48,420 bases of DNA from Candidatus Fermentibacteraceae bacterium (GCA_016744855.1 JADGDO010000018.1:1-48420); one strand, 5' to 3'; positions 11,194-47,445 are shown, numbered from the stretch's first letter. Numbers and translations: made by a program. The notes: generated by a model not told the origin, from the letters alone.

Positions 11194-11204
11194 AACCGGT
11201 ATTG

Positions 11205-11759
11205 ATGGTTGAGAAGATCAGAAGAGGCAGGGTGTCCATCACTCTGCCTTCCGGTAAATATATTGTGCCTTCATCTGGAGCTCCGAAATCAGGAACGGAT
11301 GTTGATCCTGCAAATATCATTCAACTTCAGAATGATTGTGCCAGGAACGATGTTCAGCGTTTTCTGAGTTTTTCAGAACGCTCTTCCGGTCAGTTGAGGA
11401 AAAAAGTAGTTGCCCTCGGGTATTCAAATACAGTCGCTGAAATTACAGTGGATTGGGCAATCGAGTACAATCTTGTTAATGACACCCGCTTTTGCAGCAT
11501 TTTTGTTTCCTCAAGAACAATCGGAAAGATAAGGCTGAAAAAGGAACTGATAAAGAGAGGCATTCCTCTGGAAATAGTAGAGGAGGCCGTCAACTCACTT
11601 TCGGAGAAAGACAGTACAGAAGAACTTGTTAAACAGGTTTCCCGCAAGTACGGCCATATAGAAGATTACGATACTGCTAGAAGACGTGCTGCCGGTTGGC
11701 TTTCAAGGCGGGGTTTTTCGAGCGAAGTTGCTTACAAAGTTCTGAAGGAGGCTTTGTGA
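11205..11759 (+). CDS. recX: Regulatory protein RecX
   Basis: RecX proteins bind RecA filaments and limit their activity. The 184-residue protein has three-helix repeats with the family features: a LRKKVVALGYS segment, a DTRFCSIFVSSRTI motif, RLKKELIKRGIP, and a final AAGWLSRRGFSSEVAYKVLKE. The N-terminal ~45 residues are an extra basic/Pro-rich piece not typical of short RecX. I choose ATG 11205; TTG at 11202 is also possible. Neither has a strong binding site, so translation may be coupled to recA. The stop overlaps the next gene. Confidence 0.9.
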   Translation: MVEKIRRGRVSITLPSGKYIVPSSGAPKSGTDVDPANIIQLQNDCARNDVQRFLSFSERSSGQLRKKVVALGYSNTVAEITVDWAIEYNLVNDTRFCSIFVSSRTIGKIRLKKELIKRGIPLEIVEEAVNSLSEKDSTEELVKQVSRKYGHIEDYDTARRRAAGWLSRRGFSSEVAYKVLKEAL

Positions 11760-12271
11760 AAAGTCAAAAAAACAGACTATTCTGGACCGCTCTTGGATCC
11801 CGACTTCTCGGTGAACAGGAAGACTTTGACACTTCGGAATTGCCCGCTGAGATGCAGAAAGCCCTTGATTCTTTAATACAGATTCCCATTTCCAGTTTAA
11901 TTTTATGTGGAGAGGGTCTTGAAGGTAAGCGAAACAGACACATCTACATGTACAGCTGGAAAATTCTAAGAAACATGTCATTCAGTCGACCATTCCGCTG
12001 CGAGGTGTTTCCTTCTGTACAACTCTTTGTTCCCTTTTACAGGGATAAAATTGTTGTACTACCTCAAGGGCTTACCCGAAGGATACCACTGAAGCTGAGA
12101 GCTCATGCTCTTGTCGGAAAAAACGCTGCTCTTAGGACCATCGGCTATCATCTTGTTATTGTTGCAGCAGTTTACGAGAAAGCTACCTGGGATATTTTAG
12201 AAAAGGGTGGTTGTCTGGTCTGTACGCCCGATAAATTGGAGCAACTTATCGAAGCACTTGACTTATCGTAA
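11756..12271 (+). CDS. Hypothetical protein downstream of recX
   Basis: I do not recognise this 171-residue protein. It starts at GTG 11756, overlapping the recX stop by four bases, and AAGGAGG lies directly upstream, so the start is well supported. There is no signal peptide or membrane helix. The N-terminal half is polar, and a central FPSVQLFVPFYRDKIVVLPQG stretch and a hydrophobic GYHLVIVAAVYEKATWDILEKGG segment suggest an alpha/beta domain. Tight coupling to recA-recX suggests joint expression, but nothing in the residues points to a DNA repair activity. Confidence 0.75.
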   Translation: MKSQKNRLFWTALGSRLLGEQEDFDTSELPAEMQKALDSLIQIPISSLILCGEGLEGKRNRHIYMYSWKILRNMSFSRPFRCEVFPSVQLFVPFYRDKIVVLPQGLTRRIPLKLRAHALVGKNAALRTIGYHLVIVAAVYEKATWDILEKGGCLVCTPDKLEQLIEALDLS

Positions 12272-12289
12272 GGAATGAAGCAGATTTGA

Positions 12290-12408
12290 GACCCCTTGGC
12301 ATCCATATGCTTGAAGGGAAGGGCTAAGATACACCCGGTGAAAACCGGAGCCCCCGAGCGCTGATTAGAAGTGAGATAAAAATAAAGAACCCCATCCTTT
12401 TTCGGAGG
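12290..12408 (+). promoter_or_regulatory. Structured leader upstream of rplM-rpsI
   Basis: The 145 bases between the previous stop and rplM can fold into two hairpins. The first pairs CCCTT with AAGGG around an inner GCAT / ATGC (about 12294-12320). The second nests CCGGT-GAAA-ACCGG (12335-12348) inside GGGCT (12321-12325) and AGCCC (12349-12353). A GNRA loop and a one-sided internal loop make this look like a protein- or ligand-binding RNA. The ribosome binding site GGAGG (12404-12408) lies about 50 bases further on. An L13 autoregulatory leader is the natural guess, but I do not recognise a named family. Confidence 0.5.
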
Positions 12409-12416
12409 CTTGGATA

Positions 12417-12848
12417 GTGAAGACCTACTCTGCGAAAGCCGGAGAAATCAAGAGGGACTGGTGGCTGGTTGATGCCACTGACCAGACCCTTGGAAGACTC
12501 TCGGCCAAGCTTGCCATGATACTGCAGGGCAAGAACAAACCAGTGTACACACCACATATGGACACTGGAGATTTTATTGTAGTTATTAATGTAGAGAAAA
12601 TGCGTGTTACCGGGCGCAAGCTCGATCAGAAGATTTACTACCGCCACACTGGTTACGCCGGTGGTCAGAGATCTACCCTGATGCGCGACATGATGAATGA
12701 CCATCCAGAGAGAGTACTTACTCATGCTGTTAAAGGGATGCTTCCCAAGAACAGACTTAGTAGTGCTCAGCTGAAAAAACTCAAGATATTTTCCGGTCCC
12801 GAGCATACCCATGCTGCCCAGCAGCCCAGGGTACTTGAGATCAAGTAG
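12417..12848 (+). CDS. rplM: 50S ribosomal protein L13
   Basis: L13 is an early-assembling large-subunit protein. The 143-residue sequence shows the family landmarks: WWLVDATDQTLGRLSAKLA near the N terminus, DTGDFIVVINVEKMRVTGRK, the YRHTGYAGG loop and KGMLPKNRL. The start is GTG 12417 with GGAGG at 12404-12408. rpsI follows after 12 bases, the universal rplM-rpsI pair. Confidence 0.98.
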   Translation: MKTYSAKAGEIKRDWWLVDATDQTLGRLSAKLAMILQGKNKPVYTPHMDTGDFIVVINVEKMRVTGRKLDQKIYYRHTGYAGGQRSTLMRDMMNDHPERVLTHAVKGMLPKNRLSSAQLKKLKIFSGPEHTHAAQQPRVLEIK

Positions 12849-12860
12849 TCAGGGGGCAGT

Positions 12861-13247
12861 ATGGAACAGTACATAGGAATCGGTAGAAGGAAATCTTCCA
12901 CAGCCAGGTGCTATCTGAGACCTGGTTCCGGAAAAGTAGTTATCAATCACAAGACTCCAAGTGAGTATTTCCCTGTCCTCAGACAGAAAGAACATGCACT
13001 TGAGCCTATGCAGACTATCAAAGTCTCAGCCTCATTTGATCTTGTTGTTAATGTTAAAGGCGGAGGAATTACCGGTCAAGCCGGAGCAGTTAGAATGGGC
13101 CTTGCAAGAGCTCTTGTAGAGGCTAACGGAGAATACAGACACCCACTGAAGGCAGCGGGTATGCTTCGTCGTGATCCAAGAGTTGTAGAGAGAAAGAAAT
13201 ATGGCCAGCCTAAAGCGAGAAAGCGTTTCCAGTTCTCCAAGCGTTAA
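12861..13247 (+). CDS. rpsI: 30S ribosomal protein S9
   Basis: S9 contacts the P-site tRNA through its C-terminal tail, and that tail ends here with the conserved KARKRFQFSKR. Other family features are GIGRRKSSTARCYLRPGSGK at the N terminus, GGGITGQAGAVRMGLARAL in the middle and LRRDPRVVERKKYG. Length is 128 residues, as expected. The start ATG 12861 has AGGGGGC upstream. Confidence 0.98.
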   Translation: MEQYIGIGRRKSSTARCYLRPGSGKVVINHKTPSEYFPVLRQKEHALEPMQTIKVSASFDLVVNVKGGGITGQAGAVRMGLARALVEANGEYRHPLKAAGMLRRDPRVVERKKYGQPKARKRFQFSKR

Positions 13248-30096: not shown

Positions 30097-30741
30097 ATGG
30101 AACTCTATATAGACACCGCTAATGTAGACGAGATAAGAGAAATCGCAGAATGGGGAGTCCTCTCGGGAGTTACCACCAACCCCACACTTATTGCCCGCGA
30201 GGGCAGAGACTTCCTGGAAGTAATTCGTGAGATATGCGAGCTGGTTGACGGTCCCGTCAGCGCAGAGGTTTTAAGCGAAGACATGGAAGGCATGATCAGA
30301 GAGGGTAGAGAAAAGAAGGACTGGCATGAGAGTGTTGTGATTAAGCTTCCATGTACCCCAGCCGGTATCGGTGCCTGCTCTGTTCTTGAAGATGAGGGCA
30401 TTGCGTGCAATGTTACCCTGGTTTTCAGTGCTGGACAGGGATTTCTTGCTGCAAGTGCCGGAGCTACTTTTGTGAGCCCGTTTGTTGGAAGACTTGATGA
30501 CGCTGGAACGAATGGTATGCAGGTTGTAGAAGATCTGGCTGAGATGTTCGAGATGCACGGATTCCGTACAAGAATTATCGCAGCTTCAATCAGAACTCCT
30601 AACCATCTGACCGAAGCAGCCCTTGCAGGAGCTCATATTGCTACAGTTCCCTTTAGTGTCATAAAAAAATCAATTCTTCATCCACTTACCGATAAAGGGC
30701 TTGCTTCTTTCAGAAAAGACTGGGAAGCTGCACAGAAATAA
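30097..30741 (+). CDS. tal: Transaldolase / fructose-6-phosphate aldolase family protein
   Basis: The 214-residue protein belongs to the short TalC/FSA group. It opens MELYIDTANVDEIREI, has GVTTNPTLI, catalytic Lys83 in VVIKLPCTPAG, and SPFVGRLDDAG. The short group includes true transaldolases (TalC) and fructose-6-phosphate aldolases; the split transketolase directly downstream favours transaldolase in the pentose phosphate route. AAAGGAG precedes the ATG. The stop overlaps the next ATG by one base. Confidence 0.94.
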   Translation: MELYIDTANVDEIREIAEWGVLSGVTTNPTLIAREGRDFLEVIREICELVDGPVSAEVLSEDMEGMIREGREKKDWHESVVIKLPCTPAGIGACSVLEDEGIACNVTLVFSAGQGFLAASAGATFVSPFVGRLDDAGTNGMQVVEDLAEMFEMHGFRTRIIAASIRTPNHLTEAALAGAHIATVPFSVIKKSILHPLTDKGLASFRKDWEAAQK

Positions 30742-31523
30742 TGATTTCTTCAAGGATAATCCGGGAAGATATTCTGAAAATGATCCACCGGGCTGGCAGC
30801 GGTCATCCCGGTGGTAGCCTTTCCTTAGTAGAGGTTCTCATACATCTCTATTGGAAGGAAATGAGAATTGACCCGTCTAATCCGAACTGGGAAGATCGTG
30901 ATCGTTTGATTCTTTCCAAGGGCCACGGAGCTCCGGCTCTATACTCAATTCTAGCAAGACGAGGATTCTTTCCGCCGGCTTCTCTTGATTCTCTCCGGAA
31001 ATTTGGCTCCGATCTTCAGGGGCATCCGCACATGCAGAGCCTTCCAGGTCTGGACTGCTCGACCGGAAGTTTAGGGCAGGGACTCGGGATAGCTGCTGGC
31101 CTCGCTCTTGGGCTTTCTTTAAAAAAGAGTGATGCAAGGGTATTTTGCATACTGGGTGATGGAGAGCTTCAGGAGGGTAGTATCTGGGAGTCTGCAATGT
31201 CTATTCCAAATTTAGAGCAGAAAAACATAGTAGCTGTTATAGACAGGAACCGTGTGCAACTTGATGACTCTGTTAAGAATATCATGCCTGTTGAACCACT
31301 TGCAGAGAAGTGGAGGGCATTCGGGTGGACTGTTGCTAATTGTAATGGTCATGATTCCCAGGAAATTGAACGGGCATTTGCAACGCCGACAGATAGACCT
31401 CTCGTCATTATTGCAGACACTATTAAGGGCAAAGGAGTTTCTTTCATGGAAGATCTTGCTTTGTGGCACGGTAAAGCCCCCGACAGGGATCAGCTTCATG
31501 AAGCTCTTAAGGAATTGAAATGA
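30741..31523 (+). CDS. tktA: Transketolase, N-terminal subunit
   Basis: This is the thiamine-diphosphate half of a split transketolase. It shows RIIREDILKMIHRAGSGHPGGSLS, SKGHGAPALY, TGSLGQGLGIAAGLALG and the TPP motif GDGELQEGSIWESAM ending in VIDRNRVQLDD. Length is 260 residues, matching the N-terminal half of full-length enzymes. It is followed by the C-terminal half with a four-base overlap, so the two are probably made in equal amounts and assemble into an alpha2beta2 enzyme. Confidence 0.95.
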   Translation: MISSRIIREDILKMIHRAGSGHPGGSLSLVEVLIHLYWKEMRIDPSNPNWEDRDRLILSKGHGAPALYSILARRGFFPPASLDSLRKFGSDLQGHPHMQSLPGLDCSTGSLGQGLGIAAGLALGLSLKKSDARVFCILGDGELQEGSIWESAMSIPNLEQKNIVAVIDRNRVQLDDSVKNIMPVEPLAEKWRAFGWTVANCNGHDSQEIERAFATPTDRPLVIIADTIKGKGVSFMEDLALWHGKAPDRDQLHEALKELK

Positions 31524-32449
31524 AAGCTACAAGAGTAGGTTATGTAGAGGGTCTTCTTGATGCGGGAGAGAGAGACAGCAGAGTTATTGTTATCGATGGC
31601 GATGTTAGCCGTTCCACAGGAACAGTAGCATTCCAGGATAGGTTTCCCGGAAGATTTTTCAACTTGGGTATTGCAGAACAGAATATGGCTGAGTACTCTG
31701 CCGGCCTGGCTCTCGCCGGTTTTATACCTTTCTACAGTACCTATGCTGTTTTCGCAACAGGAAGAGCATGGGACCAGATTCGCACTTCTATCTGCAACAT
31801 GAATCTGAACGTTCGTATTGGTGGCGCCCACTCAGGAACAAGCGTTGGTCCGGATGGAGCTACCCATCAGGCTTTGGAAGATATAGCAGTTACCAGAGTT
31901 CTTCCAAACATGACTGTTCTTGTCCCCGCCGACTCTAATCAGACCAGACAAGCAGTTCTTTCTTCTCTTGAAATTGATGGCCCTGTTTACATAAGATATG
32001 GAAGAAATCCTGTCCCTCAGATTTATGAGAGAAACACCCCCGTAGTTCCCGGCCGAGGCAGGTTGCTTCGCGAAGGGAAACACGCTTCCATTATTGCTGC
32101 AGGAGCAATGGTTTCAATTGCTCTTCAAGCAGCTGAAATGCTGAAAAAACAGGGAATAAGTGTTTCTGTGGCTGATATGATAAGTATTAAACCACTGGAT
32201 ACCGAGTTGATTCTACATATGGCAAAAACATCTGAAGTTATTGTTACAGCAGAAGATCATCAGGTTACAGGAGGTTTGTATGGAGCGGTGGTAGAATTCC
32301 TCGCGGAACATTCACCTCACAGAGTAATCCCTGTAGGAGTTAACAACAGATTCGGATGCAGCGGCACTCCGGAAGAAGTTTTGAAGCACTGCGGACTCAC
32401 CGCTGAGATCATTTCAGGGTGTGTAGAAAAAGCTCTCAAAAAGTGGTAA
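31520..32449 (+). CDS. tktB: Transketolase, C-terminal subunit
   Basis: This 309-residue half carries the pyrimidine-binding and C-terminal domains. It shows VIDGDVSRSTG, FFNLGIAEQNMAEYSAGLALAG with the glutamate that activates TPP, GTSVGPDGATHQALEDIA, and the C-terminal TAEDHQVTGGLYGAVVEFL. It is an exact complement of the preceding gene. Closely related 1-deoxyxylulose 5-phosphate synthase is the alternative, but pairing with transaldolase and the GPDGATHQ form favour transketolase. It ends the pcrA-tal-tkt run. Confidence 0.95.
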   Translation: MKATRVGYVEGLLDAGERDSRVIVIDGDVSRSTGTVAFQDRFPGRFFNLGIAEQNMAEYSAGLALAGFIPFYSTYAVFATGRAWDQIRTSICNMNLNVRIGGAHSGTSVGPDGATHQALEDIAVTRVLPNMTVLVPADSNQTRQAVLSSLEIDGPVYIRYGRNPVPQIYERNTPVVPGRGRLLREGKHASIIAAGAMVSIALQAAEMLKKQGISVSVADMISIKPLDTELILHMAKTSEVIVTAEDHQVTGGLYGAVVEFLAEHSPHRVIPVGVNNRFGCSGTPEEVLKHCGLTAEIISGCVEKALKKW

Positions 32450-32543: not shown

Positions 32544-33461
32544 TTGGCTAAAGTTCTTATATGTGACGCCGTTGCTGATTCTGCTCTTGATATGCTCAGA
32601 GATGCTGGGCATGAAGTAACAGTAAAAACCGGCATGGACCAAGATGGTCTACTTGAAACTGTCCCAGCTTACGATGCTATGGTTGTCAGGAGCGCTACCA
32701 AGGTCAGAGTTCCTGTACTCGAACACTGCAAGAATACGCTCAAGCTTGTTGTTCGCGGCGGAGTCGGCCTCGATAACATCGATGTAAAAGATGCAGAAGA
32801 ACGCGGTATTGCTGTAAGAAACACTCCCAGCGCCAGCTCTGTTGCTGTTGCTGAACTAGCACTTGGTCACATGCTTGCATGCTGTCGCTACATTCCCATC
32901 GCAGACAGAACTATGAAGCAGGGCGAGTGGAACAAAAAACAGTACGGTAAAGGTCTCGAGTTGTGGCACGGAACACTCGGTCTTATAGGATTCGGCCGCA
33001 TTGCAAAAGAAGTTGCAAAGCGTGCAAAAGCATTTGATATGGATGTAGTTTTCTACGATCCATTTATTCAGGACGAAATGATCGATGGAGCAAAGAAAGT
33101 GGACCTCGAAACACTTTGCAAAGAGGCTACAGTTATCAGCCTTCACATCCCCCACAATGATGCTACTCATTACATTCTTGACAAGCCTCAGTTCGATATG
33201 ATGAAAGACAATGTGATAATTGTTAACTGCGCCCGTGGCGGTACAATTAATGAAGTTGCTCTTGTTGATGCACTCGACTCCGGCAAGGTTTTTGCCGCTG
33301 GTGTTGATGTCTATGAAAAAGAGCCTTCCACATCAGAGAATTGCCCTCTGATTGCTCACCCTAAAGCAGTTGCAACTCCTCACATCGGAGCAGGCAGCAA
33401 AGGTGCTTCCGGAAGAGTCGGGTCAGAGGTAGCAAGCATAATTATTGATTTTTTCAAATAG
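32544..33461 (+). CDS. serA: D-3-phosphoglycerate dehydrogenase-like 2-hydroxyacid dehydrogenase
   Basis: The enzyme family oxidises D-2-hydroxyacids with NAD; SerA starts serine synthesis from 3-phosphoglycerate. The sequence has VVRGGVGLDNID, the cofactor motif LGLIGFGRIAKEVA, VNCARGGTINE, the catalytic glutamate in DVYEKEPS and the catalytic histidine in ATPHIGAGS. At 305 residues it lacks the regulatory ACT domain, as in the short SerA types. The start is TTG 32544 with GGAGG upstream. Module gene A starts 33 bases after its stop with no visible terminator between, so they may be co-transcribed. Confidence 0.9.
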   Translation: MAKVLICDAVADSALDMLRDAGHEVTVKTGMDQDGLLETVPAYDAMVVRSATKVRVPVLEHCKNTLKLVVRGGVGLDNIDVKDAEERGIAVRNTPSASSVAVAELALGHMLACCRYIPIADRTMKQGEWNKKQYGKGLELWHGTLGLIGFGRIAKEVAKRAKAFDMDVVFYDPFIQDEMIDGAKKVDLETLCKEATVISLHIPHNDATHYILDKPQFDMMKDNVIIVNCARGGTINEVALVDALDSGKVFAAGVDVYEKEPSTSENCPLIAHPKAVATPHIGAGSKGASGRVGSEVASIIIDFFK

Positions 33462-33494: not shown

Positions 33495-34805
33495 ATGCAG
33501 AGAAAGGTACCGGCGCTGCTTTTAGCAATGCTGCTGGCAACCGGACTTGCCTGGGCTCAGGCGGAGGAAGCCCCTCTTGCCGACCCTGTAGAGGCTACAG
33601 AATCCGCTGAAGAAGCAGTGATCGAAGGGGTGGAAGTCGAAGCTGATGCTCCCATAACGTCAGCCCCAATCGGTGACGGCATGGTCCCTCCCAGTGGTAT
33701 TGTTGCCTCTGACTGGCCTAATGATGCGGGCGACGCTCTTTTAGTCTCATGGGAGCCAGGCAGTGAAACCGGAAACGAGACTTTTATCGGCTATTCTGTT
33801 TACCGCAGAATTCAGGGTGAAGAGGAACTGGCACTTGTTGCTGTTCTGGAACTCGATGATGGCACATCTTTTATAGATGGCTATGACCCCGACTACTGGG
33901 TTGAACCCGGTGTTCAATACGAATACAGTGTTGCAGCCATGTATATGAACGGGGGCGAGGTAGCAAGTGAAATTACTGCTGCTCAGGAAACCGCAGCAAA
34001 TCAGTTTTACCACACCGGTAAAACCAGAGTTCTTTTTGGCTGCGTATTATTCCTTGGTTTAATCCTCTTCTACTTCCACGCTGCACAGCGCGGATTGGAA
34101 ATGTATCTTCGTCCGATCGCCGGTATCGAAGCTATCGATGAGGCCATCGGTCGTGCTACAGAGATGGGTAAACCAATTCTATACGTACCGGGTCTTTCAA
34201 CGATCAGTGATGTTGCCACAATAGCAAGTATCACTATTCTCGGTCGTGTTGCCAAAAAGGTAGCCGAATACGGTACACCTCTTCTTGTGCCCAACAGAGA
34301 CCCTATCGTTTATACCATCGCTGAGGAGACAGTAAAACAGGCCTACATGGAAGCAGGAAGACCTGATGCCTTCGACAAGGACAGTGTTTTCTTCCTTACC
34401 CAGAGCCAGTTTGCCTTTGTTGCCGGTGTTAACGGTATCATGATGCGTGAGAAACCTGCAACGAACTTCTACCTTGGTATGTTCTGGGCAGAATCTCTTA
34501 TTCTTGCTGAAACCGGTTCACTGAGCGGTGCCATACAGATCGCCGGAACCGATGCTGTTACCCAGCTTCCTTTCTTTATTACTACCTGTGATTACACCCT
34601 TATCGGTGAAGAGCTTTATGCTGCCAGCGCATACCTTGGCCGTGAGCCCAAACAGCTGGGATCAATCAAAGGGCAGGATGCATGCAAGGGAATAATCATG
34701 GCTGTTATTACTTTGGGAATACTGTTATCACTCACCGACCTTATTGCCGGTACAGAAACACTGAACTGGCTTAAAAATCTCATCACCATGCCTATAGTGG
34801 ACTAA
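33495..34805 (+). CDS. Membrane module protein A (DUF6754-like): signal peptide, FN3-like domain, conserved core
   Basis: The 436-residue protein has a signal peptide (1-21), a Glu/Ala-rich linker, an FN3-like beta domain (~66-165), a membrane helix (180-197), a core (~207-400) and a C-terminal helix (~401-420). The core holds GIEAIDEAIGRATEMGKPIL, PGLSTISDVATIASITILG, YGTPLLVP, the acidic DKDSVFFLTQSQ, AETGSLSGAIQIAGTDAV and YLGREPKQLGSIKGQDA. I recall this core as the uncharacterised family DUF6754, with moderate confidence. It probably faces the cytoplasm, with the FN3 domain outside. It is the first of four genes A-B-C-D, and a paralogue is at 46294. Function is unknown. GAAAGG lies upstream of the ATG. 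Confidence 0.8.
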   Translation: MQRKVPALLLAMLLATGLAWAQAEEAPLADPVEATESAEEAVIEGVEVEADAPITSAPIGDGMVPPSGIVASDWPNDAGDALLVSWEPGSETGNETFIGYSVYRRIQGEEELALVAVLELDDGTSFIDGYDPDYWVEPGVQYEYSVAAMYMNGGEVASEITAAQETAANQFYHTGKTRVLFGCVLFLGLILFYFHAAQRGLEMYLRPIAGIEAIDEAIGRATEMGKPILYVPGLSTISDVATIASITILGRVAKKVAEYGTPLLVPNRDPIVYTIAEETVKQAYMEAGRPDAFDKDSVFFLTQSQFAFVAGVNGIMMREKPATNFYLGMFWAESLILAETGSLSGAIQIAGTDAVTQLPFFITTCDYTLIGEELYAASAYLGREPKQLGSIKGQDACKGIIMAVITLGILLSLTDLIAGTETLNWLKNLITMPIVD

Positions 34806-34827
34806 CCCACCGAAAGGAGAGGATTTA

Positions 34828-35496
34828 ATGAAAAGATCTGTTCCTCTTGCGATAGTCATGGTGGGCGGAATACTGTTCATGATACAGTATTTCATTCCCC
34901 ACCAGCATTCGCAGACACTTTTTGAATATTATACAGAGTGGGCCCCTATCGTTGGAGCATTCGCTTTGGTACTCGGCGTTGGTAGTCTTACAAGACTTCA
35001 TTCCCACAAGATAAAGAGGAAAGCAAAGAACTGGCAGTACAGTTATGCCGTTCTTATTCCCCTCTATTCCATTCCTTTCTTCGCACTTGTTATGCCTCAG
35101 AGCCTCGGTGGAGGTATGATGCAGACTATGGGTGGAGATAGACTGACAATGGGTGTTTTTGACTTTGCATACATGAATATTCAGGTGCCCATTCAGGCAA
35201 CAATGTTCAGCCTCCTTGCTTTCTATATTGCAAGTGCAGCTTTCCGCGCATTCAGAGCAAAATCAGCTCTTGCTACGGTTCTGCTTCTTTCTGCAGTAAT
35301 AGTAATGCTGGGTCAGGTTCCAATTGGCGAGCTTCTCGGTAAATGGTTCCCCAAGGTTGGTCTTTGGATTCTCAGGTATCCCAACCTCGGTGCAAAGCGT
35401 GCTATTAGTCTTGGTGTTGGTTTTGGTGTCCTTGCAACACAGTTAAAAATAATCTTCGGCGTCGAGCGTAACTGGCTCGGCGGAGCCGGCGAATAG
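34828..35496 (+). CDS. Membrane module protein B: six-helix membrane protein
   Basis: The 222-residue protein has about six hydrophobic helices (roughly 5-23, 38-57, 73-90, 120-140, 150-168, 196-214). Loops include a basic HSHKIKRKAKNW segment and a Met/Gly-rich PQSLGGGMMQTMGGDRLTMG loop. I do not recognise a family. GAAAGGAGAGG precedes the ATG, and it follows gene A by 22 bases. It is always read here in the company of A, C and D, so it is probably a subunit of one membrane complex. Confidence 0.75.
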   Translation: MKRSVPLAIVMVGGILFMIQYFIPHQHSQTLFEYYTEWAPIVGAFALVLGVGSLTRLHSHKIKRKAKNWQYSYAVLIPLYSIPFFALVMPQSLGGGMMQTMGGDRLTMGVFDFAYMNIQVPIQATMFSLLAFYIASAAFRAFRAKSALATVLLLSAVIVMLGQVPIGELLGKWFPKVGLWILRYPNLGAKRAISLGVGFGVLATQLKIIFGVERNWLGGAGE

Positions 35497-35506
35497 GGAG
35501 GTGAAT

Positions 35507-36499
35507 ATGAGCATCTGGGAAAAAATGTTAAATGTAGACAGGCGCTGGATATTCCTTCTCATAGGAATTGCATGCGTTGTTCCGTTCTTTACTCCTCTCG
35601 GGCTGCCTATTCTTCCCTCTCAGGAAGTTATCAGCATCTACGATTACATAGAGGATCTTTCTACCGATAATGCAATGTTTGTTGGGTTCGATTTCGATCC
35701 GGGAACAGCTGCAGAAAACATGCCCATGGGTGTTGCAGTTCTCAGGCATGCCTTTGCCAGGAATGTTCCTGTTTTTATCACTGCTTACACTCCGCTCGGT
35801 CAGGGTATGGCAGGTATGGCTATCGATGAACTTACAAACCCGGCAACAGGTGACTATTTCGAGTATGTCAACTGGGACGCGTGGGCAGAAATCCGCGACC
35901 AGGGGTTTACAGAAAGAGCTGATATTGAGGAAGCCTGGCTCGCTGCAGGAAACACACTTCCGGAAAATGCTCGTGGTTGGATCTTTGAGGGTAGAGATAT
36001 TGCTTTCCTCGGATACCTTCCATATTTCCACTTGGTAATTCTCGGCATGAGCAGCTCTATTGTGTCTCAGTTCCCAACTGATGTTGGTGGAACTCCTCTC
36101 GAAGAAATGCCCATGTATCAGGATCACAAGAGCTTGAGAGATATTGATCTTGCAGTTACAACTGCCGGTTCGAGTGCTTGCGTAGCCTGGATTACCTACG
36201 GCCGCGAGAAGATCGGTCTTCCGATTGCTTTCGGTGTTACAGCGGTTATGGCAACAGATTACTACATCTATATCCAGTCCGGCCAGATCATAGGTCAGAT
36301 GGGTGGCCTCCGAGGTGCAGCCGAGTATGAGACTCTTCTTCTGGATAATGATTACTGCAAGAACCCCGGTAAGGCATATATTGGAATGGATGTTCAAAAC
36401 ATAGCGCATCTACTAATAATATTCCTTGTTGTTCTCGGTAACATTGCCTTCTTTGCCGGAGGATTTAACAAAAAGACTAAACTGAAAGGAAGGAGGTAG
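35507..36499 (+). CDS. Membrane module protein C: N- and C-terminal helices with large central domain
   Basis: The 330-residue protein has a membrane helix at ~14-36, a central domain and a C-terminal helix before a basic tail (NKKTKLKGRR). Central landmarks are FVGFDFDPGTAAENMPMG, NVPVFITAYTPLGQG, WIFEGRDIAFLGYLP, LAVTTAGSSACVAWITYG and IIGQMGGLRGAAEYE. The layout and small-residue motifs recall the core of protein A, for instance GSSACVAWITYG against GSLSGAIQIAG. I start at ATG 35507 because GGAGG at 35497-35501 fits it; GTG 35501 would lie inside that site. Gene D begins three bases after its stop. Function unknown. Confidence 0.75.
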   Translation: MSIWEKMLNVDRRWIFLLIGIACVVPFFTPLGLPILPSQEVISIYDYIEDLSTDNAMFVGFDFDPGTAAENMPMGVAVLRHAFARNVPVFITAYTPLGQGMAGMAIDELTNPATGDYFEYVNWDAWAEIRDQGFTERADIEEAWLAAGNTLPENARGWIFEGRDIAFLGYLPYFHLVILGMSSSIVSQFPTDVGGTPLEEMPMYQDHKSLRDIDLAVTTAGSSACVAWITYGREKIGLPIAFGVTAVMATDYYIYIQSGQIIGQMGGLRGAAEYETLLLDNDYCKNPGKAYIGMDVQNIAHLLIIFLVVLGNIAFFAGGFNKKTKLKGRR

Positions 36500-36502
36500 A
36501 TC

Positions 36503-37138
36503 ATGACTGAAACCATTGGACTCTGGGTTGGAGCTATCTTCACCATTGGTATCTACTCTTTCCTCTATAAGGAGAATCCTCTCTACCGTCTTGCTGAGCA
36601 CCTTGTTGTTGGAATTTCAACAGGTTTTGGAATTGCAATTACCTACACACAGGTTCTCAGACCCAAGCTTATTGAGCCACTCGCCAATGGAGAGCAGGGA
36701 GCTTGGCTTCTTCTGATCCCGGCGATTCTCGGCCTTCTCTACATAACCAGGTTCTTCCCTAGTGTAGGATGGTTGTCACGCTATCCAATGGCTTTCCTGA
36801 TGGGTGCCGGAATGGGTGTCGGTTTTCCGCTCTCCATGAAGTCACTTGTTCTTCGTCAGCTTGAGGCTTCCCTTACACCTCTATACGAAACAGGAATGGC
36901 TTGGGATATTGTTCTGGGTAACATAGTTCTGGTTCTCGGTACTCTTGCTGCTCTTATCTACTTCTTCTTCAGCAAGCCGCATAAGGGACCATTCTTTGGA
37001 ACAGGTTCAAAGATCGGTATCTGGGTTATTATGGTTGGTTTCGGAGCTACCTTCGGATTCACCGTAATGGGTCGTATCAGCCTTCTGATCGGCCGTATTC
37101 AGTTCCTTCTCGGAGACTGGCTTCATATCATAAAGTAG
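36503..37138 (+). CDS. Membrane module protein D: six-helix membrane protein
   Basis: The 211-residue protein has about six membrane helices and short loops. Gly-rich helices (LVVGISTGFGIAITYT, FLMGAGMGVGFPLSMKS, VGFGATFGFTVMG) suggest close packing, as in transporters or channels. No family is recognised. AGGAGG lies before the ATG and overlaps the gene C stop region, so the two are coupled. A strong terminator 22 bases after the stop closes the operon. Confidence 0.75.
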   Translation: MTETIGLWVGAIFTIGIYSFLYKENPLYRLAEHLVVGISTGFGIAITYTQVLRPKLIEPLANGEQGAWLLLIPAILGLLYITRFFPSVGWLSRYPMAFLMGAGMGVGFPLSMKSLVLRQLEASLTPLYETGMAWDIVLGNIVLVLGTLAALIYFFFSKPHKGPFFGTGSKIGIWVIMVGFGATFGFTVMGRISLLIGRIQFLLGDWLHIIK

Positions 37139-37160
37139 ACTTTCACAGATAGTTTACAAA

Positions 37161-37196
37161 GAGAATCCCCCGGCTGATGCCGGGGGATTCTCTGTT
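37161..37196 (+). terminator. Rho-independent terminator after module gene D
   Basis: GAGAATCCCCCGGC (37161-37174) pairs over 14 bp with GCCGGGGGATTCTC (37179-37192) around TGAT, and TGTTT follows. The T run is short but the stem is very strong. Confidence 0.85.
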
Positions 37197-37347: not shown

Positions 37348-40300
37348 ATGGAAGATCTTTCAGTGGGTATTGTTGTTCATTCCAGCGACACCTCAATTCT
37401 GACATGTAATCGTGCGGCTGCCGATATCCTAGGGTTGACAATCGAACAAGTTATCGGGAAAAAGGCAGCTGATCCTTCGTGGGAATTTATTCATGAGGAC
37501 ATGTCCACAATGAGTATTGAGGATTACCCTGTCAGCAAAGTAATATCATCAGGCAAACCACTAAAAAACTATTTGGCTGGAATAGAAAAACCTGACCAGA
37601 ATTCCCTTGCCTGGATAACCGCAAATGCTATTCCTCTGTTTGGCGAATCAGGCAACCTGGACAAAGTTATTGTGCACTTTACTGATATTACTAAGCACAA
37701 AAAAGCGGAGCAAGAGCTAAAGGCCAGTACGGAAAAATTCCAAGTTATGTATGATAATGCCCCGTTGTGCTATCAATCTCTTGACATCAATGGTTGTTTT
37801 CTTGATGTCAATCCCACCTGGCTGACTGTCCTTGGATATACAGGGGAAGAAGTTTTAGGGAATAGTTTCATCGACTTTCTGCATCCGGATTGGAAGCAGA
37901 ATTTTAAAATCAATTTCCCGGCATTTAAGAAATGCGGATTTGTTAATGATGTGCAATTTAAAATCAGACACAAAAACGGGAGTTATCTGCATATAAGTTT
38001 TGCAGGGCGTGTAGCTACTAATTCTGATGGAGCTTTCAAACAGACACACTGCGTTTTTAAGGACATTACTGATAAGAAGAAGGCGGAGGATGATCTGAGA
38101 GAATCTGAAGAAAGGTTCTCTGCAGCAATAGAATCCATTAGTGATTGCATACTGATCTGGGATCAAGACTACAACTACCTCTATGCCAATCAGTCTGCAA
38201 TTGATCATGTTGGCTCTACCCGAGAGCAGGTAATAGGTAAGAATATTCGCGATGGATTGGGGCATATGCCGGACTTTATGCATCTCTGGATGCAGCGTAT
38301 TGATTCAGTTTTCGCAACAGGTGAAATCCTTAAGGTTTCAGATACAACTGAAATGAGAGGAAAGCTGATTCACACCAGCTCTGTTCTTTCTCCTGTAATG
38401 AATGCTCAGAATAAGGTTGAAGCTGTTTGTGTGGTATACCGTGACATCACCTATCTTAAGACATCGGAAGAAGCATTGCGCGAAAGCGAAATTTTCATAA
38501 GGAATATTTCAGAAAACAGTACCAACCTCTTCTATGCGCACACTCCGGATCATATTCTTACCTATGTCAGCCCCCAGGTTGAAAAAATACTAGGCTATAC
38601 CATCGAAGAGGCAATGAAGTGCTGGACTGAGTTCGTTTCTGATAATCCACTAAACGAGATTGGCTTTGCCTGCACAATGAAGGCGATTGAAACTGGTGAA
38701 CGGCAACCGCCTTACGAATTGGAATTTGTAAGGAAAGATGGGAAAAAGGTATGGGCTGATGTAAGGGAGTTTCCTCAGGTCGAGAATGGGAAGACTATAG
38801 CTATAATGGGATCCTTAGCTGAAATCACAGAAAAGAAGCTTTCGGAAAAAATGCTTATAGAAAGTGAAGAACGATTCAGACTTATCTACGAAAATTCCCC
38901 GGATATGTATGCTTCTGTTTCTCCTGTTGACGCTACTATTCTCAATTGCAATAAAACAATGCTAAGAAATACAGGTTATTCACGAAATGAAATCGTTGGT
39001 TCACCAGTTTTTCTTCTTTACCACCCTGATTCCCTTGAGGATGCTGAAGATACCTTCAAACAGTTTGTACGAACCGGAAGTGTACAGGACAGGAAGCTTG
39101 TACTGAAGAGGAAGGATGGCAGCAAACTGCATACCAGCCTGAATCTTAATGCAGTTAGAGATAGCGCAGGGAGAATTCTTTATTCCATATCATCATGGAG
39201 AGACATTTCTCAGTGGTTGGATGCAGAGAAGGCAGTTCGAGCGAGTGAAAATAAATTCAGAACAGTTTTTGAGAACAGAGGAACTGCAACAGGTCTTTTT
39301 GATGAAAATGGAGTTATTAAGGATTGCAATAGTGTATTTGTTGAAATGAGTGGATATTCAAGGGAAGAGATTGTTGATAAAATCAAGTGGTCTGATTTAG
39401 TTTATAAAGAGGATCTTCCGAGATTATGGAAGTACCATACCGAAAGAGGAGCATCAGACTCATCTGCTCCAGCACAATACGAGTGCAGAGTTTGCAGTAA
39501 ACAGGGTAAACTAATGGATGCCATTCTTAATGTAGCTATGGTCGGTGATATCCGAATAGTATCATTGATTGATATTAGTGAGCACAAAAAAGCAGATGCG
39601 GAAATCAGACGAATGCAGAAGCTCGAGGGGCTGGGCACAGTCGCCGGAGGAATTGCACACGACTTTAACAATCTTCTTACAGGTGTTTTCGGTAATCTGG
39701 AAATGGCAAGACTCGACCTTCCTGAAACATCTCCTTCCTGGCAGTATCTTCAGGAAGCTCATCACGCGATACAGAGTGCACGCAGGCTGACCGGTCAACT
39801 TCTTACCTTTGCTAAGGGAGGTACGCCTGTTTTCAAGAGTGTAGAAACTGCTTCACTCCTGAAGGAAACTGTGGAGTTTAATCTTCACGGCTGCAATGTG
39901 ATATCACAGATTGAACTTGCAGATGATCTGTGGCCAGTCAAAGCAGACAGAGGGCAGATCGAACAGGTAATTGCCAACTTAACAATCAATTCCAAGCAGG
40001 CTATGCCCGGCGGTGGAGTGTTGCACATAGAGGCTGAAAACAGTCCTTTTTCCAGCAGCTCCGGTGAATTCGACTTAAAATGTGATTCAGTTGTAATAAC
40101 TATAAGAGACGAAGGTATCGGAATTCCAAGCAAAATAATAGATAACATCTTTGATCCGTATTTCACCACAAAGGATCAGGGCCACGGTCTGGGGCTTGCA
40201 ATAGTACACAGCATAATCACTCAGCACTCAGGGCTTATTAAGGCAAATTCAACAGCTGACGAGGGTGCAACCTTTACCATCACTCTTCCTGCTGTTCCGC

Positions 40301-40752
40301 CGGCTGAATCGAGTGATACGGCAGAGTGTATTCAGGCCGGAAAAACAACCTCTGCTGATTCAAATCTTCATATCTTGATAATGGACGATGAGCAGATGGT
40401 AAGAAGCATTGCAGAGCAGCTCTTGCAACGAATGGGACATACTACTGATACCGCAGTCGATGGTGACGAGGCTATCATGAAGTACACCGGAGCTTTTGAA
40501 AGCAACAATCCATTTGACCTTATAATGATGGATCTTACTATTCGCGGTGGTAAGGGTGGTAAAGAAACCATTAAAGAACTGCTTCAGATTTATCCTGATG
40601 CAAAGGTAATTGTTTCCAGTGGCTATGCTTCGGGGCCAATAATGGCTGACTACTCAGCCTACGGTTTTGCAGGCAAACTAGCCAAGCCATATACTGTTGC
40701 TGATCTGCGAGATGAAATTATCAGAGTATCATCCTCAATACCTGGAGACTAA
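37348..40752 (+). CDS. Hybrid sensor histidine kinase with six PAS domains and a receiver
   Basis: The 1134-residue protein (from ATG 37348) has no signal peptide or membrane helix, so it is probably cytoplasmic. Six PAS/PAC units follow one another (about 1-120, 125-240, 250-370, 375-495, 505-625, 635-755), several separated by KKAE-LRESEERF linkers. Then come the H box GGIAHDFNNLL with His771, an HATPase domain (NLTINSKQA, DEGIGIP, HGLGLAIVHSI) and a receiver whose phospho-acceptor is Asp1062 in MMDLTIRGG. The family phosphorylates itself and relays to the receiver. No separate response regulator or output gene is adjacent. The start is doubtful: the frame is open back to 37258, the sequence TFEDIHSLMEDLS forms the usual first PAS helix, and GGGAGG lies at 37261-37266, followed at the right distance by ATC rather than ATG. 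Confidence 0.92.
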   Translation: MEDLSVGIVVHSSDTSILTCNRAAADILGLTIEQVIGKKAADPSWEFIHEDMSTMSIEDYPVSKVISSGKPLKNYLAGIEKPDQNSLAWITANAIPLFGESGNLDKVIVHFTDITKHKKAEQELKASTEKFQVMYDNAPLCYQSLDINGCFLDVNPTWLTVLGYTGEEVLGNSFIDFLHPDWKQNFKINFPAFKKCGFVNDVQFKIRHKNGSYLHISFAGRVATNSDGAFKQTHCVFKDITDKKKAEDDLRESEERFSAAIESISDCILIWDQDYNYLYANQSAIDHVGSTREQVIGKNIRDGLGHMPDFMHLWMQRIDSVFATGEILKVSDTTEMRGKLIHTSSVLSPVMNAQNKVEAVCVVYRDITYLKTSEEALRESEIFIRNISENSTNLFYAHTPDHILTYVSPQVEKILGYTIEEAMKCWTEFVSDNPLNEIGFACTMKAIETGERQPPYELEFVRKDGKKVWADVREFPQVENGKTIAIMGSLAEITEKKLSEKMLIESEERFRLIYENSPDMYASVSPVDATILNCNKTMLRNTGYSRNEIVGSPVFLLYHPDSLEDAEDTFKQFVRTGSVQDRKLVLKRKDGSKLHTSLNLNAVRDSAGRILYSISSWRDISQWLDAEKAVRASENKFRTVFENRGTATGLFDENGVIKDCNSVFVEMSGYSREEIVDKIKWSDLVYKEDLPRLWKYHTERGASDSSAPAQYECRVCSKQGKLMDAILNVAMVGDIRIVSLIDISEHKKADAEIRRMQKLEGLGTVAGGIAHDFNNLLTGVFGNLEMARLDLPETSPSWQYLQEAHHAIQSARRLTGQLLTFAKGGTPVFKSVETASLLKETVEFNLHGCNVISQIELADDLWPVKADRGQIEQVIANLTINSKQAMPGGGVLHIEAENSPFSSSSGEFDLKCDSVVITIRDEGIGIPSKIIDNIFDPYFTTKDQGHGLGLAIVHSIITQHSGLIKANSTADEGATFTITLPAVPPAESSDTAECIQAGKTTSADSNLHILIMDDEQMVRSIAEQLLQRMGHTTDTAVDGDEAIMKYTGAFESNNPFDLIMMDLTIRGGKGGKETIKELLQIYPDAKVIVSSGYASGPIMADYSAYGFAGKLAKPYTVADLRDEIIRVSSSIPGD

Positions 40753-41411: not shown

Positions 41412-41486
41412 TACTAGTAAAAGGTCGAAAAAAACGGAAGAGACAAATGCCTGATAAGTGCCGATGAACATAAATTGGAGGACAAA

Positions 41487-44237
41487 ATGGCTGAACGTCT
41501 GCTTGTGAGTGATGTGGGAAGTACAACAACAAAGCTTCTCTTGATTGAGCTTGATGTAGATGGATTCAAATCTCTCGGATCTGTCGCTGTCAGTACAACT
41601 GTGGAAAAGCCTTTTGAAGACGTTTGTATCGGTTTTTACCGGGGTATTGAAGAACTATCTGAGAAGTCAGGGCTGACCCTTCTCGATGAAAATGGTACTC
41701 TGAATGTGCCTTTCCACACAACCAGTTCTGCCGGTGGGGGCCTTCAGATACTTGTTATCGCACTTGCCTCTTCAGACAGTGGTAGAATGGCAAAAGCGGT
41801 TTCCTACAGTGCCGGTGGTGTTGTTCTTGACTCTTTTGCTATTGATGACGACATGCCCCGTGTAGAGAAGATCAGGCGGATGAGACACCTTTCTCCCGAT
41901 CTTGTTTTAATGGCCGGAGGATACGATGGGGGAGCTATTGCCAGTGTTGTGAATATGGCTCAGTTACTGGCCTTTTCTCATCCCACTCCCAAATTTGGGA
42001 AGGGGAAACTTCCTCTTGTTTTCTGTGGAAATCCCGAGGTACGTCCCTACATTAAAGGTATGCTTGGCAAATTCTTCTCGCTTTCCTTCACTGACAACAT
42101 TCGCCCGGATGGATTACACTTCAACCTGAAACCGGCTATCGAAGAGGTGCACCGACTGTTCATGGATCATGTGATGCAGATGGCTCCGGGATACTCCAGA
42201 CTTGCTGCGCTTACCACAGCGCCGATTATTCCAACCCCTGCAGGTGTGGAAAGAGTCCTGGAATGTTATGCTACAGAGCTTAAGGGTAATGTCGTTTTAG
42301 CAGACATGGGAGGGGCTACAACCGATATCTTTAGTAACATCCGGGGTGCTTTCCAGAGAACAGTTGCCGCTAACACAGGCATGAGCTACAGTCTTTCCAA
42401 CATCATCCGTGAAGCGGGTCCCGATAAAGTATTTGCTCACATCCCGACTATTGACGAGAGCATCAGTAGAAACTGGATACTCAGCAAAACTCTTTTCCCC
42501 ACAATAGTTCCTGCAGACGAAACAGCAGAAGCTGTAGAATGCGCTGCTGCTACTGAGGGAATACGGCTCGCCTGGAAACACCACCTGGCGATTAGTTATA
42601 TGAGAAGTAAAGTGGGCTTTACTGAAAGAATGAGACAGCTCGGGAAATGCAAGTTTGACGAAGCTTTCAAAACCCAGCAAGGTGATCCATTTAAAATATC
42701 GGATATTTCTGTGATAATCGGTGCCGGTGGTGTTATGGCCCATGCCACACCAAGATGTGCCTCATGGATTCTGGCATCCAGCTTCCGCCCCAAGGGTCTT
42801 ACAGAGCTTATGGTCGACAGGCATTTTCAGAGTCCCCACATGGGATTGCTCGCCAGGCAGTACCCGGAAAAGAGTCTCAAGTATTACAAAGAAAATTGTC
42901 TCCAGACAATCTGCAGGGTCTACTCACCTTTGAAGAAAGTAAAGAAATTAAAGGTCTCTTGTGGTGGGAAGCAGTTAGTTGTTCAATCGGGCAGTTGCAG
43001 GTATCTGGAAGATAGTCTGAATGTAAAGATTCAAGGAGTCGATCTGCCCCAGGACAATGTTCCACTGCTTGTTGATTGCCGATTTGGAGACGAAAAAATT
43101 CCTATGAATTTTCTGGAGACTCCGGAAGTTTATCCCGATCTTCCTGTTCTTCCTTCCATGACCGTTCCTGCTTTAAAAGAAGAAGAGATAAACAAGGAAT
43201 TCGACCTTGCATTTGAGGGGGAGATTAAGGTCAATGAGGGGGATTCTGTTGCCCCTGGAGATATCCTGGGGCTTAACAAACTGGTCCCTCCAAGGGTCTA
43301 TTTTGTGGATGTAAGACGCTATGTGGGCTATGGTCGTGATGAAATATCTGACCAGATGATTGTAGATAACATACAGGTGAAGAAGGGCGACAAAGTTCGT
43401 ACCGGTGATACTGTTTTTGCAATTTCTCACGGCAAGGGCCTTCAGAAATACAGAACCTCAATGGGAAGCCCCGTTCGGGGACTCGTACACGAAGTCGTTT
43501 TTCCAGGAATGATAATCCTTAGGGAAATACAGGACTATGACGGAAAACCTCACCATGTGAATGTTGCTAAATTGCTTGATTTGAACCCCAGAAGAGTAAC
43601 TGCCAATATGAAGGTGCATGTTGGTGATTTTGTTGAGCGTACTCAGGCTATCACCGTGGGAGGACAGCTTCCCAATGTTAAATCTCCTGCTACCGGTACA
43701 GTTACAGAGATTAACAAAAAAACGGGCATTGTAACAATTCAGTACAACCTGACTCCTGTAAACATCTACTCCCCGATGAAGGGTGTTGTCTCAGCTATTG
43801 ATCCTCTTATGTCAGCTACTGTTAAGTCACGCGGACTATTTATTCCTGGGGTTGTAGGGTTCGGAAAAATACGCTGGGGTAAGCTTTCGGTCGGAGCTAT
43901 GAGGAAAGATTCTGTTGTTCTACTCGACTGTAAACTGACACCGGCCCTTATCGAAGAGGCAACCAGAGAATCTGTTGCAGGGATAATTGCTCCATCCATG
44001 GAGGGAATTGATCTTGTCGGTTTCCTGGAAGAGGAACCGGGAGTTATTCTTACCGGAACAGAGAATCTTCCCTTTTCACTTATCCTGCTTCAAGGCATGG
44101 GCGATCTTAAGATGGAACAGAATTCTTTTGAGTCTCTGTCGAGTAATAGCGGCAGGAATTGTGTATTGTTTACAACCACAAGGCTAAGAGCCGGTGTTGA
44201 AAGACCTTTTGTGTTGTTGCAGACTGAGGAGCAGTAA
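41487..44237 (+). CDS. MutL/GlmL-like ASKHA protein with C-terminal lipoyl-like extension
   Basis: The N-terminal ~450 residues match the MutL/GlmL family associated with glutamate mutase: phosphate motif DVGSTTTK (9-16), VVLADMGGATTDIFS, and the adenosine motif VIIGAGGVMAHATPR. GlmL proteins are about 460 residues; this one has 916. The extra half contains repeated G-D-x-V turns (VNEGDSVAPGD, VKKGDKVRTGD, VHVGDFVERTQ) and SPATGTVTEI / SPMKGVVSAI, which resemble biotinyl/lipoyl or KOW-like hairpins, although no MKM lysine is seen. No mutase genes are in the window. I start at ATG 41487 because GGAGG (41477-41481) fits it. The stop overlaps the rubredoxin start by one base. Confidence 0.78.
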   Translation: MAERLLVSDVGSTTTKLLLIELDVDGFKSLGSVAVSTTVEKPFEDVCIGFYRGIEELSEKSGLTLLDENGTLNVPFHTTSSAGGGLQILVIALASSDSGRMAKAVSYSAGGVVLDSFAIDDDMPRVEKIRRMRHLSPDLVLMAGGYDGGAIASVVNMAQLLAFSHPTPKFGKGKLPLVFCGNPEVRPYIKGMLGKFFSLSFTDNIRPDGLHFNLKPAIEEVHRLFMDHVMQMAPGYSRLAALTTAPIIPTPAGVERVLECYATELKGNVVLADMGGATTDIFSNIRGAFQRTVAANTGMSYSLSNIIREAGPDKVFAHIPTIDESISRNWILSKTLFPTIVPADETAEAVECAAATEGIRLAWKHHLAISYMRSKVGFTERMRQLGKCKFDEAFKTQQGDPFKISDISVIIGAGGVMAHATPRCASWILASSFRPKGLTELMVDRHFQSPHMGLLARQYPEKSLKYYKENCLQTICRVYSPLKKVKKLKVSCGGKQLVVQSGSCRYLEDSLNVKIQGVDLPQDNVPLLVDCRFGDEKIPMNFLETPEVYPDLPVLPSMTVPALKEEEINKEFDLAFEGEIKVNEGDSVAPGDILGLNKLVPPRVYFVDVRRYVGYGRDEISDQMIVDNIQVKKGDKVRTGDTVFAISHGKGLQKYRTSMGSPVRGLVHEVVFPGMIILREIQDYDGKPHHVNVAKLLDLNPRRVTANMKVHVGDFVERTQAITVGGQLPNVKSPATGTVTEINKKTGIVTIQYNLTPVNIYSPMKGVVSAIDPLMSATVKSRGLFIPGVVGFGKIRWGKLSVGAMRKDSVVLLDCKLTPALIEEATRESVAGIIAPSMEGIDLVGFLEEEPGVILTGTENLPFSLILLQGMGDLKMEQNSFESLSSNSGRNCVLFTTTRLRAGVERPFVLLQTEEQ

Positions 44238-44483: not shown

Positions 44484-44559
<76 letters not shown>

Positions 44560-46293: not shown

Positions 46294-47445
46294 TTGATCA
46301 CTGCTTTTATGGTATGCGTAGCACTATTCTCAACGGCCAACATAGTTTCTGTCACCAATGTTCCCGAAGACGACGGTTCTCTTCTTCAAGTCGAATTTGA
46401 CGAGGCGATGGAAGTTGCAGATAACCATGTCGGATTACTCATACAGCGAAGCGAAACTGGTTCTGACGAGGCAATCTGGAGCACAGTTTTTGTAGAAGCT
46501 CTTCCCCTCGAAAGCACAGTACTTATTGATGGCTATGATCCCGATTTTCCAATCTACCCGATGACATCATATCATTATAGAACGATTGTTCTTACGCTTG
46601 AAGGAGATTCTCTCACAAGTACAGTTTTTACAGGTGCAGAGCTTCCCGTTGGTGAATGGTTCAGTACGAGTGAAACATCCACACTTATTGGTTGCCTTCT
46701 CTTCCTCAGTATGATTTTCTTCTACTTTCATAAAGCAAAGAAAGGGTCAGACTTTTACCTCCGACCTATTGCCGGTATCGAAGCAATAGACGAGGCAATA
46801 GGAAGAGCAACAGAAATGGGTAAACCCATTCTTTATGTACCGGGGCTTTCCACCATTGGTGATGTCGCTACAATTGCGAGTATCACGATACTCGGCAGAG
46901 TAGCTAAGAAAGTAGCCGAGTATGGAACTCCTCTTCTTGTTCCAAACTGCGATCCCATTGTATTCACGGTTTGTGAAGAAACAGTAAAACAAGGATATCT
47001 TGAGGCCGGAAGACCGGACGCATATGACCAGGACAGTGTATTCTTTCTTACCCAGAGCCAGTTTGCATACGTGGCGGGTGTGAATGGAATCATGATGAGA
47101 GATAAACCTGCGACCAACTTCTATCTGGGAATGTTCTGGGCTGAATCTTTGATTCTTGCCGAGACCGGTTCACTATCCGGTGCCATTCAGATTGCAGGAA
47201 CCGATGCTGTTACACAGCTTCCTTTCTTTATAACAACTTGCGATTACACTCTCATCGGTGAAGAACTCTATGCTGCCAGTGCTTACCTTGGGAGAGAACC
47301 CAAACAGCTCGGTTCAATCAAGGGGCAGGATGCCTGCAAGGCCATCATGATGACCTTTATCACACTGGGTGTAGTCCTAAGCATCATTTATGCCATCACG
47401 GGAAACGAGTCAGTGATGTTTCTCGGGCGCTTTTTGAACCTGTAG
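46294..47445 (+). CDS. Membrane module protein A paralogue (A')
   Basis: The 383-residue protein has a short hydrophobic N terminus, a beta-rich domain (~20-115), one membrane helix (129-146), a core (~157-350) and a C-terminal helix. Over the ~190-residue core I count about eleven differences by eye from protein A at 33495, while the N-terminal domains share little beyond the DGYDPD segment. B, C and D homologues are not present beside it. The start is TTG 46294; GGAGG at 46282-46286 fits. Two GNAT genes follow, the first one base after its stop. Function unknown. Confidence 0.82.
   Translation: MITAFMVCVALFSTANIVSVTNVPEDDGSLLQVEFDEAMEVADNHVGLLIQRSETGSDEAIWSTVFVEALPLESTVLIDGYDPDFPIYPMTSYHYRTIVLTLEGDSLTSTVFTGAELPVGEWFSTSETSTLIGCLLFLSMIFFYFHKAKKGSDFYLRPIAGIEAIDEAIGRATEMGKPILYVPGLSTIGDVATIASITILGRVAKKVAEYGTPLLVPNCDPIVFTVCEETVKQGYLEAGRPDAYDQDSVFFLTQSQFAYVAGVNGIMMRDKPATNFYLGMFWAESLILAETGSLSGAIQIAGTDAVTQLPFFITTCDYTLIGEELYAASAYLGREPKQLGSIKGQDACKAIMMTFITLGVVLSIIYAITGNESVMFLGRFLNL

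Follow-up and report, generated by a model that had tools for sequence, protein, structure and literature searches.

What is the function of four adjacent genes for membrane proteins, here called A, B, C and D, in a 48,420-nucleotide (nt) stretch of DNA from Candidatus Fermentibacteraceae bacterium (GCA_016744855.1 JADGDO010000018.1:1-48420; the whole stretch is hereafter the window)? An initial annotation, made from the sequence alone, had read them as the parts of a single multi-subunit membrane complex with a function not yet described. The analysis presented here supports that reading, and we infer that the four proteins form a physical complex. It also adds partners that the annotation did not contain. 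A-B-C-D and the proteins M1, M2, N1 and N2, encoded beside them in many genomes, almost certainly constitute a conserved functional unit. Also new are the tandem arrays in which quartets occur, the fusion of M1 and M2 in the window itself and the window's lone second A gene, A'.

A conserved four-gene membrane module

As the initial annotation had it, the four genes are tightly spaced open reading frames (ORFs) on the same strand, with gaps of 22, 4 and 3 nt between them (Table 1). Compared with a close relative (locus L049), codon position 3 has changed in 0.41-0.48 of codons in all four genes and positions 1 and 2 in just 0.03-0.12, and synonymously changed codons exceed nonsynonymous ones two- to threefold. 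This pattern indicates that all four are real genes under protein-level selection. Strong ribosome sites, claimed for the whole set, precede B, C and D, while that of A is weaker. The start of C is probably the ATG at 35507 rather than the GTG at 35501, since the latter sits within the Shine-Dalgarno sequence GGGAGGTG. The strong terminator proposed after D corresponds to a perfect 15-bp RNA stem, in a stretch that folds at -34.6 kcal/mol (z -4.7); its T tract is weak and a terminator scanner made no call there, and we regard the hairpin as a probable terminator.

Relatives of A number at least 577, and 80 loci were kept for comparison. Carriers belong to dozens of lineages, most of them uncultured, and are mostly metagenome-assembled genomes, whose titles supply the phylum names: WOR-3 and Stahlbacteria, Zixiibacteriota, Latescibacterota, Fermentibacteria, Cloacimonadota, Poribacteria, Edwardsbacteria, Coatesbacteria, Eisenbacteria, Mcinerneyibacteriota, CSSED10-310 and TA06. 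The nearest relatives among the matches listed belong to Candidatus Sabulitectum, which makes the window Fermentibacterota-like. The annotation had proposed to look for the four genes, in one conserved order, in different phyla, and this is what we found. The comparison yielded 132 quartets with the order A-B-C-D; they are spread over 102 loci, some of which hold two or three of them in tandem, and represent at least 12 candidate phyla. By a stricter count, B, C and D follow 110 of the 126 A genes that have room downstream; among the exceptions, several arise artificially from ORF calls that overlap, and others are lone A genes. In 50 cases from tandem arrays, the best partners of B, C and D fell in the quartet that also held the best partner of A 47, 47 and 44 times, respectively, so that a quartet is inherited as one unit. 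Mirror-tree correlations over whole pairs are low for A (0.15-0.29) and reach 0.65-0.70 among B, C and D; for pairs within a locus they are higher (0.56-0.90).

Partner proteins and genome-wide co-occurrence

Two genes, M1 and M2, recur directly upstream of A. They are preceded by N1 (about 125 amino acids, aa) and often also by N2 (about 145 aa), which has hydrophobic segments. The common gene order is N2-N1-M1-M2-A-B-C-D. M1, about 600 aa long, is predicted to have a MutL/GlmL-type ASKHA ATPase fold; it carries the ASKHA phosphate motifs and spans the whole Pfam profile PF13941 (MutL), which scores 439 bits on stand-alone M1 and 265.7 bits on the M1-M2 fusion of the window. M2, about 375 aa long, contains barrel-sandwich repeats. 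Profile searches of the PDB gave no significant sequence relative for M1 and just weak RraA and NqrA rows for M2.

Co-occurrence was assessed in 151 genomes from other families. The profile seeds for B, C, D, M1, M2 and N were operon neighbours, and the genome-wide searches were not limited to neighbours; they covered A, D, M1, M2 and N1. A was present in 36 genomes, D in 38, M1 in 32, M2 in 33 and N1 in 35, and all five occurred together in 31 (pairwise Fisher p < 1e-25). M1 (at E 1e-100), N1 and strong M2 matches were never found in these genomes outside those having A or D. The association holds also where the parts sit on different contigs and thus reflects more than operon hitchhiking. 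Across carriers the M1-M2 part is mostly single-copy and the membrane part duplicated, with several quartets and few M2 genes per genome (six A genes and one M2 gene in each of genomes G143 and G175). These copy numbers suggest that one cytosolic module is common to several membrane modules. The gene set, its co-occurrence, the coherence of the quartet and the domain content are well supported.

Divergent forms were also seen. One genome holds an M1-D-C cluster (L151, 4212-9199), in which C is 706 aa long with repeated DWLRG-type stretches, and a separate M2 (L150, 6209-7354) among Chloroflexota-like neighbouring genes. M2 adjoins a lone A at L154 (6692-9033), where the neighbouring genes are planctomycete-like; this genome is a single contig of 6.4 Mb, and its D and M1 genes are at other places on the chromosome. 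Given such neighbours, a cultured host may exist.

Architecture of the membrane proteins

AlphaFold2 models were made for A and C, and all folds and topologies given here are predictions. A begins with a signal peptide, followed by a fibronectin type III (FN3) domain, a first transmembrane (TM) segment, a DUF6754 core and a second TM segment, in agreement with the secreted FN3-like domain and inner core of the initial annotation. The annotation's assignment of the core to DUF6754 was correct: residues 168-417 match Pfam PF20539 (E 6.9e-116, 386 bits against a cut-off of 27) over profile positions 2-251 of 257, and the core is thus a full-length member of that family. The model of A has a mean pLDDT of 89, and its FN3 fold was recovered by VIA (Z 12.8, rmsd 1.9 over 96 residues); the Pfam fn3 profile stayed below cut-off. 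FN3 matches dominated the structure-search lists for A. Charge bias predicts that the core is cytosolic and that the FN3 domain and the domain of C lie outside. Mean pairwise identity is 64% in the core and 29% in the FN3 domain. With 67 of its 186 columns at least 90% identical, the core is better conserved than any other part of A, B, C or D. This contrast would suit an inner partner that is common to all and outer targets that differ.

B is predicted to have six TM segments with both termini in the cytosol, and D six to seven, much as the initial annotation had estimated; each gives a conserved alignment (A4 for B, A5 for D). C has one TM segment at either end of a large outward alpha/beta domain, also as described, and its model has a pLDDT of 94.6. 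Neither a Pfam or NCBIfam family nor, in PDB profile searches, a significant sequence relative was found for B, C or D. Foldseek with the C model gave no match below E 0.001. The top VIA row for its domain was the CODH/ACS epsilon subunit (9c0t_C; Z 8.9, rmsd 3.2, 145 residues), a score bordering on noise and followed by rows from other families at Z 8.8 to 8.0; there is no sequence match to this subunit, and the domain of C differs from it in being outward and membrane-anchored. By eye, the A core and the C domain, and likewise B and D, gave the impression of duplicated pairs, and both ideas were dropped as they had no profile support.

The entry for PF20539 describes a single domain of unknown function, and no family covers B, C, D, N1 or N2. 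A limited literature search returned no paper naming DUF6754, none on MutL together with a membrane complex, none describing this complex and nothing relevant on genes of unknown function in the host phylum. A PADLOC search with nine module proteins gave no match at E 0.01, which speaks against the anti-phage defence systems listed there.

Possible modes of action

We propose a single inner-membrane complex with A, B, C and D as its subunits, in which B and D would make the membrane part, the DUF6754 core of A would face the cytosol, and C and the FN3 domain would face outward and handle the outer side. It would work with a cytosolic module made of M1 and, as a barrel-sandwich adaptor, M2, and in addition with N1 and often N2. 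Most likely, M1 would use ATP, by way of M2, to cycle the A core between conformations, and this cycling would drive transport, or an equivalent vectorial step, through B and D. A single M1-M2 set would serve one to several quartets, which may thus differ in substrate. The gene set, the co-occurrence and the predicted ATPase fold of M1 support a cytosolic, presumably ATP-using module that acts with the membrane module; ATP coupling, transport as the output and the substrate are what we infer beyond this. The whole, with its ATP-coupled mechanism, is our best explanation, and we hold it at somewhat below even confidence. Its most specific form, in which an ASKHA-fold ATPase powers a four-subunit transport machine and several membrane modules with different specificities draw on a single energising module, is tentative and rather doubtful. 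In its working, such an arrangement would resemble the group II ECF transporters, in which several membrane modules share an energising module; these use ABC ATPases instead of an ASKHA fold, no homology was found, and the comparison is a lead only.

Several points weigh against this proposal. We know of no ASKHA protein that drives transport, the putative ATPase activity of M1 is read from its motifs, and no transporter family was recognised in B or D. Three genomes (G099, G118 and G071) have A and D and no recognised strong M1 and M2; M1-M2 may therefore be dispensable for the membrane part, or may have been replaced or have diverged there. In addition, adjacency to glycine-cleavage genes could point to an enzymatic role instead. 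The gene gcvP lies near the set in 13 loci, mostly beside N2 or N1, and gcvH and lplA in five each. Since gcvP is present in 161 of 192 genomes, its co-occurrence is uninformative and adjacency alone carries information; most lineages have no gcv or lplA adjacency. Any connection with the metabolism of glycine, serine or lipoate is a lead, not an established result.

This setting would suit a different role for the partner proteins, in which M1, M2 and N1 help to assemble or reactivate the A-B-C-D complex in the style of ASKHA chaperones and reactivases, with one set of factors for all quartets, and the complex itself does something else, for instance as an enzyme or in ion handling. The named families nearest to M1 are the NCBIfam families GlmL, a mutase accessory protein, and the ornithine Or-4 protein; M1 falls below the equivalog cut-offs, with 155 bits against the 475 needed for GlmL. 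A single M1-M2 per several quartets and the genomes having A and D without a recognised M1-M2 would be expected of such factors as well. M1 and M2, however, accompany the complex almost without exception, and the barrel-sandwich domain of M2 is like the docking subunits of membrane complexes. We consider an assembly role a credible possibility, if a minority one.

A function in envelope structure, secretion or attachment, with M1 as an actin-fold scaffold like PilM or GspL and a surface polymer bound by the variable outer part of A, is unlikely. It would account for the actin fold of the cytosolic partner, for the several paralogous quartets per genome and for the variability of the outer part of A, which has almost vanished in some relatives and in others reaches about 700 aa, with stretches resembling FN3. 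The recurrent neighbours of the set, however, include no gene for a pilus, a secretin or a secretion ATPase, and the set often follows genes of central metabolism.

The barrel-sandwich domain of M2 and the two six-TM subunits recall the Rnf and Nqr complexes, of which this system could be a distant relative, with M2 like NqrA or RnfC, B and D as the six-TM pair and C as an outward subunit. The M2 region of the window's fusion matches NQRA_N above cut-off (PF05896, E 3.3e-6, 27.7 bits against 25) and RnfC_N weakly, while the NQRA_N profile stays below cut-off on stand-alone M2 proteins. However, B, C and D have no conserved cysteine (best cysteine columns 0.21, 0.51 and 0.30, respectively) and hence no shared iron-sulfur site; A to D give no Rnf or Nqr match in Pfam or NCBIfam; the PDB profile searches with B, C and D were equally negative; and Rnf and Nqr have no ATPase-fold partner. 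Membership was rejected on the missing cysteines and family matches, and even a distant relationship is very improbable.

That M1 is an ordinary glutamate-mutase reactivase, incidentally linked to A-B-C-D, is scarcely credible: M1 resembles the GlmL family and covers the full PF13941 profile, yet it tracks A, D, M2 and N1, is linked to membrane genes, and the E subunit of glutamate mutase, the enzyme that GlmL serves, is absent above cut-off from 36 of 37 module genomes, which speaks against reactivation of this B12 mutase.

The window's own version and its surroundings

The window departs from the common gene order in that M1 and M2 are fused and lie downstream of the quartet (Table 1). The N-terminal part of the fusion is a MutL/GlmL-type ASKHA domain with the phosphate motifs VSDVGSTTTK and DMGGATTD (PF13941, E 9.3e-79); its C-terminal M2 part has a barrel-sandwich and an RraA-like stretch and is without the conserved tail of stand-alone M2. 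The two halves match stand-alone M1 and M2. A' is 66% identical to A over residues 71-430, and a lone downstream A occurs also at L043, L047, L052, L054 and L056. Relatives from the same family (L043, L049, L052, L054, L056) partly share this layout. Another contig of the same genome has the canonical order of gcv genes-N2-N1-M1-M2, with a second A-B-C-D about 7 kb away. Two more fusions, of 919 and 910 aa (L130 and L131), lie at about 79800-82600 and 93500-96200 of G000:C13. No A-B-C-D was present in their fetched surroundings, and the fused form has thus been duplicated apart from the membrane part.

The link to serA raised in the initial annotation holds within a lineage. The gene lies on the same strand directly upstream of the quartet in the window and is the neighbour also at L049-L052 and L054-L056, in Fermentibacterota; other lineages have gcv or lplA genes as neighbours, or neither. 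It is a conserved neighbour in Fermentibacterota, outside the core set. Directly upstream of serA, a transaldolase gene precedes a transketolase gene split into two adjacent ORFs, in an order shared by several Fermentibacterota relatives. At L034, a DUF255 thioredoxin-domain protein (10815-12944) is encoded directly upstream of that genome's second A-B-C-D. A hybrid histidine kinase lies between quartet and fusion in the window, which also contains genes for structured RNAs.

Table 1. Position of the quartet, its predicted domains and other features in the window
Feature	Position	Strand	Remarks
Quartet A-B-C-D	33495-37138	+	four same-strand ORFs
A ORF	33495-34805	+	436 aa
A FN3 domain	about 33681-34001	+	
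A TM1	about 34014-34088	+	
A DUF6754 core	about 34089-34646	+	cytosolic side by charge bias
A TM2	about 34647-34748	+	
B ORF	34828-35496	+	222 aa
C ORF	35501-36499	+	likely coding 35507-36499
C outward domain	about 35618-36355	+	Rossmann-like alpha/beta order, predicted model
D ORF	36503-37138	+	211 aa
Hairpin after D	37160-37193	+	perfect 15-bp RNA stem
M1-M2 fusion	41475-44237	+	920 aa
A' (second A paralogue)	46294-47445	+	lone, no B, C or D with it
serA-like D-3-phosphoglycerate dehydrogenase	32544-33461	+	33 nt upstream of A
Transaldolase, split transketolase	30097-32449		
Multi-PAS hybrid histidine kinase	37348-40752		1134 aa
SRP RNA	2653-2909		large bacterial type
tRNA genes (Ala, Phe)	1012-1087 and 44484-44559		

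Implications

Just A and M1 fall in named families, although the six to eight genes of the system are conserved across at least 12 phyla. This wide conservation, together with a mostly single-copy M1-M2 part and a duplicated membrane part, suggests that the system does something basic in its carriers. Should M1 power the membrane part, the ASKHA fold would gain a function for which we know of no precedent. If the proposal as a whole is true, the complex would be of a new, energy-coupled kind, and about a quarter of the bacterial lineages sampled at family level would carry it.

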